Part shown: piece after piece, positions 28,051 through 48,894 of the stretch | Position numbering within the stretch: position 1 is the first letter of the stretch | How the letters are laid out: each line of letters begins with the position of its first letter | Assembly (NCBI RefSeq): GCF_003390915.1 | Contig: NZ_QMEM01000006.1 | Span: 1-64,000, forward strand | Reading direction: 5' to 3' | Length of the DNA stretch: 64,000 nucleotides | DNA from: Lewinella sp. IMCC34183 | GTDB taxonomy: Bacteria; Bacteroidota; Bacteroidia; Chitinophagales; Saprospiraceae | The notes under the pieces: generated by a model | Database searches by the model: none | The model's input: the letters and a program-made list of their open reading frames with translations, nothing else | Told to the model about the DNA's origin: nothing | Translations under genes and position numbers: made by a program

Positions 28051-28112
28051 GACGCGTTCACGCAACCTTTTGAGACACCCAAATACACAGCGCAGCGGCA
28101 AGTTGTATATCT

Positions 28113-28147
28113 GCGCACATCCGATGTAGGTAACATCCGATGTGCGC
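28113..28147. repeat. Palindromic repeat, CACATCSGATGTG family (copy 1)
   Basis: Two 15-bp arms (28113-28127 and 28133-28147), each containing ACATCCGATGT, form a hairpin with one central mismatch and a 5-nt loop. It sits 25 nt past the stop of the leftward TonB-C gene. Related copies occur at 39132-39168 and 39322-39350. Confidence 0.75.
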
Positions 28148-28171
28148 GGATAACAAAGAAACACCGCGGAA

Positions 28172-28633
28172 CTACTTACCCAAATCAAACTTGACAGGTA
28201 GGTTGAAGCGGGCACGGACCGGTTTACCGTTCTGCAAACCGGGTTCCCAGCGAGTGGTGGTTTGCATCAACTGGACGACGCGCAGGGCCTCTTCGCCCAG
28301 ACCGGTGCCGGGGTCGCGCTGGAGGGTTGGCTCGGAAATGGTGCCGTCCGGCTCGACGATGAAGCTGACGACGGCCATGCCCTCGGCTTCAGCCTTCTGA
28401 GCGACGGCGGGATAGGTGACGTTTTCGTAAACAAACTCTAGCATAGCCTTGTCGGCGCAGGGTTTGCGGTCCCAGCGGCTACCCTCGGTCGGACAGTCGT
28501 CGGACAGGAACATCGGCATTTCCTCGACCACGTTGTATACGCCGTCTTCATCGGGACCTTTCCGGGCTTCGGTCTTTTCCTGGGCCGACAGTGTGAAAGC
28601 AAACAAGAGGAAAAACAGGGTAAGGTATTGCAT
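28172..28633 (-). CDS. TonB C-terminal-domain protein
   Basis: A 153-residue exported protein with a signal peptide (MQYLTLFFLLFAFTLSA). A short linker carries a VEEMPMF motif. A single TonB-C domain follows (YPAVAQKAEAEGMAVVSFIV, RDPGTGLGEEALRVVQLM, RWEPGLQNGKPVRARFNLPV). It lacks the N-terminal transmembrane anchor of true TonB, so it probably acts in the periplasm or as an envelope adaptor of unknown role. I use the ATG at 28631-28633; the longer reading would translate the upstream palindrome. A broken paralogue lies 450 bp upstream. Confidence 0.82.
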   Translation of the reverse strand: MQYLTLFFLLFAFTLSAQEKTEARKGPDEDGVYNVVEEMPMFLSDDCPTEGSRWDRKPCADKAMLEFVYENVTYPAVAQKAEAEGMAVVSFIVEPDGTISEPTLQRDPGTGLGEEALRVVQLMQTTTRWEPGLQNGKPVRARFNLPVKFDLGK

Positions 28634-28709: not shown

Positions 28710-28782
28710 AGTGGCCGGTCGACTAGTCGACCGGCCACTAACGATACGTACCAGTTGCGAATAATTAACCTACAGGTAACAT
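28710..28782 (-). promoter_or_regulatory. Composite element: 30-bp palindrome plus conserved 20-mer
   Basis: Positions 28710-28739 are a perfect 30-bp palindrome beginning AGTGGCCGGTCGACT. After 23 nt comes AATTAACCTACAGGTAACAT (28763-28782). The same arrangement, with identical 23-nt spacing and an 18/20 match in the 20-mer, occurs at 48792-48894. In both cases it lies about 130-140 nt upstream of a leftward gene (the TonB-C gene here, hmgA there). Read on the minus strand, the 20-mer would be promoter-proximal and the palindrome would fall in the 5' untranslated region. Confidence 0.6.
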
Positions 28783-29080
28783 TAGTCCAGCCAGGATAGA
28801 CCCACCGTATTACTTGCCGGGCAACCGATTAGGACAGAGGAAACCGCAGCCATCAGTAGGCAGGTCGAGAAATACACTGGGTGCACCTCCCACGCGATCC
28901 TGAGCTCAGCCGGGGGGTGACTATCATGGACGGACCAAAAGCTATCAATGCGCAGATCTAATGAAGTACCTCGTAGGCGCCGCGATAGCAATTGTCGTAC
29001 TTCAATAACTTGCCTAGCGAAAACCTCACCAGTAGCTTGAATGCTAGGCAGCCGGATGTTTCATCTCCCACGCCGGGATT
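28783..29080. other. Intergenic, nothing recognised
   Basis: A 298-bp stretch between the composite element and a broken TonB-C gene. The 69-codon minus ORF at 28782-28991 shows no family features and uses atypical codons. The base composition is lower in GC than in neighbouring genes, which fits decayed DNA. Confidence 0.4.
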
Positions 29081-29395
29081 TCAGCAGCGACCTGACTTAC
29101 GCACCAGCCGGGCGATGGGCAGGACGTCCCTTCCTATACCGTAGCCGGGGTCGCGGTAACTGGCGTCTTTAAACAGGGAACCGTCTCGTTCTGCCATGAC
29201 CGATAACCCAGCCATGCCTTCCTTCGCTTCCTCAGGGTAATAGACGTTCTGGTATACGAATTCAAGCATCTTGCCGTCGGTGCGGGGCTTGTAGTCTCTC
29301 CCCCCAGATGATCCGCGACAAAGGAAAGGTACTTGGTCGGCCTTTCCGTGGACGCCATCGGCATTGGGCTGAATGTGGTTTGGGGCATGAGCGGG
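29081..29395 (-). pseudogene. TonB-C-domain paralogue, truncated at both ends
   Basis: A frame from about 29395 to 29081 reads ADGVHGKADQVPFLC, YKPRTDGKMLEFVYQNVYYP, EEAKEGMAGLSVMAERDGSL and RDPGYGIGRDVLPIARLVRK. This is clearly homologous to the central part of the protein at 28172-28633. It has no signal peptide or start in frame, and it stops after LVRKSGRC, before the RWEPGLQNGKPV part of the domain. It is probably the remnant of a tandem duplication. Confidence 0.75.
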
Positions 29396-39123: not shown

Positions 39124-39131
39124 CCCTCGCG

Positions 39132-39168
39132 GCCGCACATCGGATGTCGAGCACATCCGATGTGCGGC
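39132..39168. repeat. Palindromic repeat, CACATCSGATGTG family (copy 2)
   Basis: GCCGCACATCGGATGT (39132-39147) and its exact complement (39153-39168) make a 16-bp perfect stem with a 5-nt loop, 8 nt after the GH92 gene's stop. It could act as the transcript's 3' end, though no T-run follows. Confidence 0.8.
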
Positions 39169-39321
39169 TGCCCAAATTGCTTAATAAGGTTTGGTAGATC
39201 ATTACCCGGATGTGATTGCCGGTCAGGTATTTAGGTTGTTTTACCCGAATACTGTTGAAAACCTTTACCCGGGCAACAAGCCTCTGAATCCCGTCTGGAA
39301 TTGACCGTTTTGCCCCTTACG

Positions 39322-39350
39322 CACATCGGATGTGCACCACATCCGATGTG
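39322..39350. repeat. Palindromic repeat, CACATCSGATGTG family (copy 3)
   Basis: CACATCGGATGTG (39322-39334), a 3-nt loop and CACATCCGATGTG (39338-39350) form a perfect 13-bp stem. It lies in the 334-bp spacer between the GH92 gene and the permease gene, 150 nt from copy 2. The rest of the spacer (39169-39321 and 39351-39457) holds no recognised gene. Confidence 0.8.
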
Positions 39351-39457
39351 GGTAGCGGGCACCCCGTCCGGGCACTAAAATAATCTCCGGCCCGACCCGC
39401 AAAATGCGGTTTTCAGTCACCTACTTTTATGAGTAGAACCTGACTCGCTTACCCCAA

Positions 39458-46390: not shown

Positions 46391-47581
46391 TTAAGGCTGA
46401 TTGTTAAGTGCGGCTTGCACGGTTCCGGTGGCACTGCCGAAGCCTACGCGGGAAGATCCGGCACCGGCGTGCCCGTGCAGGGTCACGGTGTCTCCGTCGG
46501 CAAGAAACTCACCCCGCTTGCCGTTTTCGGTGATCTCCAGCAGGGAACCGTAGGCGTCCACACCGGGACCGGAGATCGTACCGGAGGCCAGCAGATCCCC
46601 CACGCGGACGTTGCAGCCGTTGCTGGTGTGGTGGGCCAGTTGCTGTCGCATGCTCCAGTAGAGGTGGCGGAAATTGGAGCGGCAGACGGTGCGGTCATTG
46701 ATCGTCACGCGCAGGTCGATGTCGTAGTGAGCGGGGGTGGTAGTCCGGAGATAGGGAAGTACCTCGGGGTCCTGCTCGGGACCGGCGACGCGAAAGGGCT
46801 CCAGGGCCTCCAGGGGCACGATCCAGGGGGAGACGGAGGAAGCGAAGCTCTTGCCGAGGAAGGGCCCCAGGGGCACGTATTCCCAGCGCTGGATATCGCG
46901 GGCGGACCAGTCGTTGAACAGAAAGAGGCCGAAGATGTAGTCTTCCGTTTCCGCGATCGGAACGGGCTCTCCCAGCCGGGACTCCTTACCGATCACGAAG
47001 GCCACTTCGAGCTCGAAGTCTAGGCGTTGGCTTGGTCCAAATACGGGGCGGTCAGCGTCAGGCAGCATCGTTTGCCCCAGTGGGCGCCGAACGTCAGTCC
47101 CGCTGACCACGATCGAGGAGGCCCGCCCGTGGTACCCGACCGGCAGGTGGCGCCAGTTGGGCAGCAGGGCGTTCTCCGGATCGCGGAACATGCGGCCGAC
47201 ATTGGTAGCGTGCTCGATGCTGGAGTAGAAGTCGGTGTAGTCGCCTATCCGCACGGGGAGGTGGAGGGTCGCTTCGGACATCGGTACCAGGTGTTCCGGC
47301 CGAACCACGCCCGCCCCGCCTTCGCGAAGCCACCCTTGCACCTGCGTCCGCGCCCTGGAAGTCACGCATTTACTCAGCGCGATGAAGTCGTTCAGTACCG
47401 GCTGATTAAACACCTCGGGGTCGAAGTCAAAGGCCCCCGTACGGGCCAGGGCGTACAGGTCGAGGATGTCCTTCCCCACCGCCATGCCCGCGCGGGGACT
47501 ACGGTCGGCGGTGGAGAAGATGCCATAGGGCAGGTTGGCTAGGGTAAAGTCGGAGCCGTCCGGAATGCGCAACTCAATCAT
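46391..47581 (-). CDS. fahA: Fumarylacetoacetase
   Basis: Hydrolyses fumarylacetoacetate to fumarate and acetoacetate, the last step of tyrosine/homogentisate breakdown. At 396 residues it is near the family length of about 420. The N-terminal domain (about 1-110) is followed by the catalytic FAH fold: DYTDFYSSIEHATNVG (metal Asp), LDFELEVAFVIGK, FNDWSARDIQRWEY and LGPFLGKSFASSVSPW, with a SGTISGP motif. It overlaps the 3' end of hmgA by 8 bp. Confidence 0.92.
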   Translation of the reverse strand: MIELRIPDGSDFTLANLPYGIFSTADRSPRAGMAVGKDILDLYALARTGAFDFDPEVFNQPVLNDFIALSKCVTSRARTQVQGWLREGGAGVVRPEHLVPMSEATLHLPVRIGDYTDFYSSIEHATNVGRMFRDPENALLPNWRHLPVGYHGRASSIVVSGTDVRRPLGQTMLPDADRPVFGPSQRLDFELEVAFVIGKESRLGEPVPIAETEDYIFGLFLFNDWSARDIQRWEYVPLGPFLGKSFASSVSPWIVPLEALEPFRVAGPEQDPEVLPYLRTTTPAHYDIDLRVTINDRTVCRSNFRHLYWSMRQQLAHHTSNGCNVRVGDLLASGTISGPGVDAYGSLLEITENGKRGEFLADGDTVTLHGHAGAGSSRVGFGSATGTVQAALNNQP

Positions 47582-48737
47582 GGGCGAACCAGGATTGGTA
47601 GTACTTGCCGTCGTCGATCTTGGCGGCCTCGGCGGTCACCTGCAGGGGCCGAAAGGTGTCTACCATGACGGCCAGTTCCTCGGTACCTTTCTTGCCGATG
47701 CTGCCCTCGTAGGTGCCCGGGTGCGGTCCGTGGGGAATGCCGCCGGGGTGTAGCGTCAGGTAGCCGGGACCGATGCCGGTGCGGCTCATGAAGTCGCCGT
47801 CGACGTAGTAGAGCACCTCGTCGGAATCGATGTTGCTGTGGTTGTACGGCGCCGGAATCGCCTGCGGGTGGTAGTCGTAGAGCCGCGGGCAGAAAGAGCA
47901 GACGACGAACGACTTCGTCTCAAAAGTCTGGTGGACGGGGGGCGGCTGGTGGACGCGGCCGGTGATCGGCTCGAAATTGTGGATGCTGAAGCCGTATGGG
48001 AAGTTGTAGCCGTCCCAGCCGACGACATCGAAGGGGTGGGTGGCGTAGACGAGCTCGTGAAGCATGCCTTGCTTCTTGATCTTGACGACGAAGTCGCCCT
48101 CCTCGATGTGGGTTTCGAGGTCCTGGGGCAGCTTGTAGTCGCGCTCGGTAAAGGGCGAATGCTCAAGGAGTTGTCCGAAGTGGTTACGGTACCGCTTTGG
48201 GGTATAGATCGGGTCGGCGGATTCGGTGTAGAAGATGCGGTTGTCCTCGGTATCGAAGTCGATCTGGTAGATCACGCCTCGCGGGATGACGAGGTAGTCG
48301 CCGTACTCGAAGGGGATATTGCCGAGGAAGGTACGGAGGGTGCCGGTGCCGCGGTGGACGAAGAGGAGCTCGTCGGCGTCGGCGTTCTTGTAGAAATAGT
48401 CGCGCAGGCTCTTGCGGGGGGCGGCCACGCCGATGGTGACGTCGCTGTTGGTGAGCAGCGGCTTGCGGGAGGCGAGGTAATCATCTTCGGGAGCCACGTC
48501 GAAGCCGAGCAACTTGCGGGCGGTGATGGTCTTTTCCTCGGCAATTCGGGGGCTGAGGTCGGTCTTGCCGCGGATCTCCTTCACCTGGGTGGGCCGGCCG
48601 GCGTGGTACATCAGCGAGGACATGCCGTCGAAGCCGACGGTGCCGAACAGCTGCTCGTTATAGAGCGAGCCGTCGGACTGGCGAAACTGGGTGTGCCGTT
48701 TGGGGGGTAGCTTCCCGAGGCGATGGTAAATGGGCAT
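47574..48737 (-). CDS. hmgA: Homogentisate 1,2-dioxygenase
   Basis: Opens the ring of homogentisate to maleylacetoacetate, using non-haem iron. 387 residues. Family features include GFDGMSSLMYHAGRPTQVKE, LLFVHRGTGTLRTFLGNIPF, YGDYLVIPRGVIYQID and the iron-ligand region YNHSNIDSDEVLYYVDGDF with a late HPGGIPHGPHPGTYEGS. It is first in the operon. The palindrome/20-mer element at 48792-48894 lies in its upstream region. A hydroxyphenylpyruvate dioxygenase gene and a maleylacetoacetate isomerase gene are not in the window. Confidence 0.93.
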   Translation of the reverse strand: MPIYHRLGKLPPKRHTQFRQSDGSLYNEQLFGTVGFDGMSSLMYHAGRPTQVKEIRGKTDLSPRIAEEKTITARKLLGFDVAPEDDYLASRKPLLTNSDVTIGVAAPRKSLRDYFYKNADADELLFVHRGTGTLRTFLGNIPFEYGDYLVIPRGVIYQIDFDTEDNRIFYTESADPIYTPKRYRNHFGQLLEHSPFTERDYKLPQDLETHIEEGDFVVKIKKQGMLHELVYATHPFDVVGWDGYNFPYGFSIHNFEPITGRVHQPPPVHQTFETKSFVVCSFCPRLYDYHPQAIPAPYNHSNIDSDEVLYYVDGDFMSRTGIGPGYLTLHPGGIPHGPHPGTYEGSIGKKGTEELAVMVDTFRPLQVTAEAAKIDDGKYYQSWFAHD

Positions 48738-48791: not shown

Positions 48792-48894
48792 AGTGGCCGG
48801 TCGGGTAGTGGACCGGCCACTACTCGCCGGTCCACTACCCGACCGGCCACTCACGCGTCGGACCAATCCGCCAAAATTAACCCACAGTTAACAT
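48792..48894 (-). promoter_or_regulatory. Composite element: 26-bp-arm hairpin plus conserved 20-mer
   Basis: Arms at 48792-48817 and 48826-48851 are exact complements (26 bp; starts AGTGGCCGGTCGGGTAGTGG) with an 8-nt loop. After 23 nt comes AATTAACCCACAGTTAACAT (48875-48894), matching the copy at 28763-28782 in 18 of 20 bases at the same spacing. An exact -7 box TAATTTTG occurs on the minus strand at 48872-48879, so hmgA transcription would start inside the module and carry the hairpin in its leader. The enoyl-CoA hydratase gene diverges on the other side. Confidence 0.6.

Follow-up and report, generated by a model that had tools for sequence, protein, structure and literature searches.

The question raised by this locus is whether a perfect 30-bp palindrome and a conserved 20-mer, found a constant distance apart at two places in one 64,000-nucleotide stretch of Lewinella sp. 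IMCC34183 DNA (the window), form a defined element and, if so, of what kind. The initial annotation had proposed a REP/MITE-like module rather than chance hairpins, with the 20-mer as a promoter-like sequence. We find that copy A (28710-28782) is built as it described, from palindrome, 23-nt spacer and 20-mer, and that copy B, 20 kb away, has a like layout, again with a 23-nt spacer and with a 20-mer that agrees at 18 of 20 positions (Table 1). The inverted repeat of copy B has perfect arms of 26 nt with 8 nt in between. At up to three mismatches the 20-mer occurs twice in the window and not once in 100 dinucleotide shuffles of it. The copies had also been placed upstream of a TonB_C-domain gene and of a gene that we, following the label given there, presume to be hmgA; the arrays do lie towards these genes, with the 20-mers separated from both genes by the palindrome. 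A degenerate TonB_C paralogue with an internal stop (29009-29368, minus strand) lies past the box of copy A.

Table 1. Features of the two copies in the window and of the genes on their array sides
Feature	Position	Strand	Remarks
Copy A array, two units	28710..28739	+	perfect 30-bp palindrome; forward unit 28710-28724, reverse unit 28725-28739
Copy A spacer, 23 nt	28740..28762	+	contains TACGTACCAGTT, motif of the 18-copy consensus
Copy A 20-mer box	28763..28782	+	AATTAACCTACAGGTAACAT
Copy A (L002) remnant of the RAYT-promoter dyad	28784..28802	+	AGTCCAG-n5-ATAGACC, 11 of 14 positions
Copy A (L002) -7-like sequence	28808..28817	+	TATTACTTGC; weak, offset by -2 nt from the expected spacing
Copy B array, four units	48792..48851	+	60-bp near-perfect inverted repeat
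Copy B units	48792-48806, 48807-48821, 48822-48836, 48837-48851	+	
Copy B spacer, 23 nt	48852..48874	+	
Copy B 20-mer box	48875..48894	+	AATTAACCCACAGTTAACAT; two mismatches to copy A
TonB_C-domain protein gene (PF03544)	28172..28633	-	start of gene faces the copy A array
Homogentisate 1,2-dioxygenase-like gene	47574..48737	-	array side of copy B

The element is neither confined to these two copies nor placed at random distances. Across the 5.1-Mb genome that carries the window (G000, from the same genus group as Neolewinella marina), the 20-mer at up to three mismatches gives 16 matches and its reversed control none, and an array accompanies 15 of the 16. A shorter pattern used in the genus search added one copy and a sequence model built on spacer and box added two, so that we count 18 copies of a single unit, in which an array of 15-bp half-palindromes is followed by a 23-nt spacer and by the box WWTTAACCYACAGTTAACAY, of the form TTAAC-N6-TTAAC. 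The arrays hold 2 to 6 units, forward AGTGGCCGGTCGACT, reverse AGTCGACCGGCCACT or variants of these, and in 18 of 18 copies exactly 23 nt separate the end of a unit from the box. What is fixed is this 15-bp register, where the initial annotation had named the palindrome itself; the 30-bp palindrome adjoins the spacer in only 11 of the 18 copies, lies one unit out in five and two units out in one, and was not found in L016, which is also the only copy whose inverted repeat does not exceed those of all 100 shuffles. The outer units of copy B, L004 and L005 vary between copies but, by eye, remain complementary, and the spacer has a consensus of its own (the motif given for copy A in Table 1). Rough gene calls, in a check that left out C50:307378, place 17 of the 18 copies between genes. 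As a query, the half-palindrome alone returned 33 matches against 12 in the control; the spacer motif alone, used as a loose query (838 against 487), was too unspecific. Two further sites enter no count: L012 (C34:517476), a 20-mer with three mismatches and no array upstream of a gene that by eye we take to be pyrG-like, and L029 (C44:539817), a lone partial match that was dropped.

We present evidence that the likely source of these repeats is encoded in the same genome. The copy at C34:870929-871001 is followed, 41 bp past its end, by an open reading frame of 231 aa that has the motifs HFH and YIHDNP and resembles RAYT proteins (REP-associated Y1 transposases). It and its aligned relatives, ten proteins in all, match the NCBIfam family NF047646 'REP-associated tyrosine transposase' at E<=0.1 (best 1.3e-12), two of them with scores of 40 and 35 bits against a cut-off of 80; HFH and YIHxNP are invariant among the ten. 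Pfam Y1_Tnp stays below threshold (15 against 23 bits, with E<=0.1 in 5 of 10), the top match of a PDB profile search was TnpArep 4er8 at E=0.16, and a structure model of the N. marina protein from a three-row alignment (mean pLDDT 42.6) was too poor for use. The gene adjoins what we have named a VWA-domain gene, which is present in 20 of 21 genomes of the genus and has a RAYT beside it in seven: G000, G007, G017 (Neolewinella marina), G018 (N. aquimaris), G004 (Lewinella sp. JB7), G013 and G012. The other 13 gave no RAYT match at this locus, two of them with less than 400 nt of flank. Upstream of the RAYT, a script detected palindromes in G000, G018, G004 and G013; inspection by eye showed repeat units in G007 and in G017, and nothing clear of either sort in G012; downstream, palindromes were seen by eye in G017, G018, G004 and G013, so that these four have them on both sides, and none in G000 or G007, where they are upstream only.

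Because one copy adjoins a RAYT-like gene, and palindromes or repeat units stand beside most of its orthologues, we link the element to this enzyme. Copy A is probably one of 18 dispersed, non-autonomous REP-like copies served by a vertically inherited RAYT of the Y1/HUH type as their cognate enzyme. The RAYT would bind the arrays as single-stranded hairpins and would copy or renew them, and so keep the units of each genome alike. Several findings speak against this explanation, among them that the copies number about 20, far fewer than is typical of REPs, that the RAYT of G000 has arrays on its upstream side only, that the NCBIfam scores given and the Pfam score lie below their cut-offs and the best PDB match reached only E=0.16, and that in G007 no more than 6 of 13 palindromes beat all shuffles. 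We note that the window holds a second palindrome family, CACATC[CG]GATGTG (39129-39171, 39311-39361 and 28108-28152), which matches hairpins (L269:900-1130) upstream of a second RAYT-like gene at C55:80691; these palindromes and that gene are probably a second REP/RAYT pair in G000.

The element is restricted to few relatives. The strict form of the box occurs in three of the 21 genus genomes (G000, G007 and G001), and the spacer-plus-box model, scoring 150 first-look candidates per genome, gives 18, 14 and 12 matches in these at E<=0.1. Nothing convincing was found in the 18 other congeners, seven of which have one to three weak matches (best E 0.003) and 11 none. We examined 13 of the 14 matches in G007 and 10 of the 12 in G001, leaving out C1:1082577 in the former and C44:337128, in which the box is incomplete, and C1:193090 in the latter. 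G007 has another 15-bp unit, AGTGGTCGGACGACT, and another spacer consensus, together with an almost identical box. When the proteins flanking the G000 sites were compared with those at 20 G007 and G001 loci, two sites proved to be shared by G000 and G007, one of them also by G001, and five by G007 and G001. That each genome has its own unit type at the two G000/G007 sites implies either concerted change or independent insertion in one place. At hmgA the element is absent from all 11 relatives inspected, of 17 found, so that copy B looks lineage-specific; no exact insertion boundary could be read from this comparison of G000 with the 11. Upstream of hmgA in G009, a genome without a RAYT orthologue, there is a short repeated pair, CCGTCGGACGG...GGTCGGACGG (L279). 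The proposal of a defined REP/MITE-like module has turned out to be largely right, since 18 copies keep one register, one of them adjoins a RAYT-like gene and the occurrence is lineage-specific.

In G001 the VWA locus gave no RAYT match and carries only array-like scar sequence, and no close homologue was found elsewhere in the genome (best 34% identity); G001 seems to have lost the RAYT gene, as the preferred explanation would have it. Its inverted repeats are also the shortest. The median arm of the inverted repeat is 16.5 nt in G000 (n=18), 11 in G007 (n=13) and 5 in G001 (n=10; p=2.4e-5 against G000 and p=0.003 against G007). Eight of the ten G001 arrays have no inverted repeat above chance and two do, with the box kept; in G007 the palindromes beat all shuffles in 6 of 13 copies, and in 10 of 13 were reached by at most three of 100. 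Calculated without small-sample correction, the box holds 1.56, 1.50 and 1.47 bits per column in G000, G007 and G001, and the spacer 1.30, 1.04 and 0.75. The pattern of a kept box and a lost array in G001 is partly a matter of ascertainment, because the search model contains the box. A separate search for palindromes in G001 returned seven matches at five sites, two of them at known copies, against five in the reversed control.

What, then, is the box? The sequence TTAAC-n3-ASTCCAC-n5-GTRGAST (TTAAC plus a dyad) precedes the VWA-locus RAYT in G000, G017, G018, G004, G013 and G012 and, in degenerate form, in G007, with TTAAC before all seven orthologues. At up to two mismatches this pattern occurs 52 times in 7 of the 21 genomes (control, 1) and in none of the remaining 14 genomes, among which several carry other RAYTs. 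A CTTTTGC-like -7 element (at least five of seven letters) lies exactly 38 nt away in 21 of 37 instances, five of the 21 being tandem duplicates in G000. In the copy beside the G000 RAYT, the TTAAC of this promoter is the second TTAAC of the 20-mer, and remnants of the dyad in the dispersed copies exceed background (5.64 of 14 positions against 4.35, sd 0.25), with 11 or 12 of 14 kept in four copies, copy A among them. From this overlap and these remnants, the box looks like a part of the RAYT promoter region that has travelled with the array; it would be the upstream part, and may still bind a host protein. The dispersed boxes are not intact promoters, since, among 39 of them, the predicted place comes only eighth of 71 offsets by -7 score. 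With this result, the -7 position-weight test built from the TTAAC-plus-dyad promoters failed, and the earlier suggestion that the 20-mer serves as a promoter for its neighbours is not supported; a scan for the consensus TAnnTTTG was unconvincing as well.

The TTAAC-plus-dyad promoters have a distribution of their own. In G000, six tandem copies with the -7 element lie at C34:1095550-1096130 (L267:1050-1630) with a period of about 111 bp, five of them followed by a short hairpin (GGACAGAACGCTGTCC or nearly so), and could be tandem small-RNA genes; clusters of three occur in G004 and in G012, and one of two in G018. The same sequence precedes two RAYT lineages and a secreted-protein-like gene, and G000 sites include C55:80606, C50:342306, C5:58557 and C34:870995, with further loci in G009, G012, G013, G017, G018 and G004. 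The start codon often comes shortly after the -7 element. Some of the genes presumably encode GxxExxY-like nucleases, and the genes behind this promoter look like an undescribed regulon.

A position between genes and a conserved box might also be expected of a module for transcriptional control, in which the box would be an operator or promoter for the flanking genes and the array a protein-binding or insulating structure. The locked 23-nt register fits this, as do the overlap of the box with the promoter-like region ahead of the G000 RAYT and the nearly equal conservation of the box in the RAYT-less G001 and in G000. So does the orientation of the neighbours: of 20 element sites 12 lie between divergent, five between convergent and three between co-directional genes, compared with 17, 5 and 27 of 49 other gaps of at least 120 bp (p=0.003, by rough gene calls). 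This set leaves out C50:307378 and includes three sites beyond the 18 copies, namely C50:508004, where a palindrome is present, and C54:188956 and C54:221910 (L045 and L046), where array and TTAAC-plus-dyad motif stand in inverted order and the motif points into the hairpin; copy A is scored as divergent, and counting the degenerate TonB_C paralogue as its neighbour would make it co-directional, giving 11 divergent, 5 convergent and 4 co-directional sites. But the five convergent sites are as awkward for a control module as for a promoter of the neighbouring genes, the -7 element is not kept, the flanking genes, as far as their sequences were read, have no common pathway, and the 11 relatives inspected lack copy B at hmgA. 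We therefore regard a control module as unlikely.

Within the RAYT explanation, the arrays may have a direction. In G000, 21 of 36 units at positions 1 and 2, next to the box, are perfect, compared with 1 of 30 further out, and in G007 7 of 25 compared with 0 of 36, by a unit consensus that was itself derived from box-proximal palindromes. A measure independent of the consensus gives 13.4, 13.6, 9.6 and 7.0 of 15 outward from the box in G000, where arrays that have ended dilute the later values, and 9.0, 8.3, 8.5 and 8.0 in G007, where a drop is hardly visible. It is conceivable, if rather doubtful, that the RAYT, with the box as its fixed starting point, rewrites the 15-bp units of a polar, leader-anchored array again and again, so that each species has its own units at fixed sites, freshest beside the box, and that a host DNA-binding protein holds the box and lets it outlast loss of the enzyme. 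A promoter and transcription-factor role is put forward as speculation in the excerpted text of PMC8049555, and a polar array, if true, would be a REP-plus-regulator pairing of that sort.

The remaining alternatives fare worse. The copies could be remnants of some other mobile element, either a DDE-type MITE or an attachment site for a recombinase; they are dispersed and partly lineage-specific, and TTAAC-N6-TTAAC is nearly a dyad. Yet 17 box-aligned copies, compared by eye, share no left boundary and show neither terminal inverted repeats nor a target duplication, and the gene beside one copy is RAYT-like, which leaves this reading quite improbable. Bidirectional transcription terminators would likewise be GC-rich hairpins between genes, but inspection by eye showed no run of T after the stems towards the box, and 12 of the 20 sites lie between divergent genes; we give this very little credence. 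Least credible is a PHO-box-like direct repeat (TTAACC-N5-TTAACA, 11-bp period) for a PhoB/PhoP-type regulator with incidental palindromes, which we dropped in spite of what we take to be a likeness to Pho boxes in spacing and sequence, since none of the flanking proteins read was recognised as phosphate-related, 18 congeners yielded nothing convincing and the box is locked to arrays.

Lastly, we compare the element with known systems, drawing on excerpts of the cited papers. RAYTs are regarded as domesticated transposases, and what the cell gains from them is unknown (PMC8049555). The present system is small and countable, with about 20 copies, seven genomes that have the gene at one locus, one seeming loss and box-locked arrays; it allows the effect of a RAYT on its repeats, and any regulation by the repeats, to be asked about directly, and it provides a concrete example of RAYT-linked repeats in Bacteroidota. 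In REPtrons, rayt genes are flanked by inverted REPs, which usually number more than 100 copies (Nunvar et al. 2010, PMC2817692). As there, the palindromes described here are extragenic, the repeats are species-specific, a rayt gene evolves faster than its neighbour (between G000 and G007, 66% identity for the RAYT against 99% for the VWA protein) and four congeners have palindromes on both sides of the gene; a Y1 transposase gene, judged by sequence, adjoins a copy. Unlike there, G000 has only some 20 copies, a difference in a trait that is typical of REPs rather than strictly defining, and has arrays of 15-bp half-units at a fixed 23 nt from a conserved box, with palindromes upstream only. 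Of the GT[AG]G head expected at the palindrome foot, the G000 unit has GTGG, but paired with CCAC, and other species differ.

Closest in phylum is TnpA-REP subclass 2.6 (RAYT group 5) of Bacteroidetes, whose reported 'atypical secondary structures' recur at other places in the genome (PMC6006769). The flanking structures with genomic copies and an SS motif after YIHxNP agree; the proteins here have DHFH and YIHDNP where that subclass has NH[LIV]H and YIH[QN]NP, the G000 unit has GTGG, and the subclass description, as excerpted, mentions no box. Because the motifs of subclass 2.6 are not those found here, we file the element only as RAYT-like. The 'double foot' REPs of subclass 2.4 (PMC6006769) likewise have GTGG and its complement CCAC at opposite palindrome ends, as in G000, but not a unit repeated in a fixed 15-bp register. 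REPINs, too, are inverted pairs; they persist alongside the single-copy, vertically inherited RAYT that disperses them, and are fewer in RAYT-less E. coli genomes (PMC8049555, PMC3116915); the halves of the G000 palindrome, by contrast, abut in copy A and most copies with no variable spacer, and have a fixed external box. TIRYTs (TIR-associated tyrosine transposases, PMC3733652) are RAYT-like genes with long terminal inverted repeats and moderately abundant genomic copies; by description they resemble the present case in that inverted repeats distinct from plain GTAG REPs flank a Y1 gene, and they differ in that repeats stand on just one side of the G000 gene. Going by titles and abstract openings, we found no box at a fixed distance from RAYT repeats in the literature. 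The element looks like an unusual, array-forming relative of REP elements, of the RAYT/REP kind, and is set apart within that kind by its low copy number, its arrays in 15-bp register and its fixed box.
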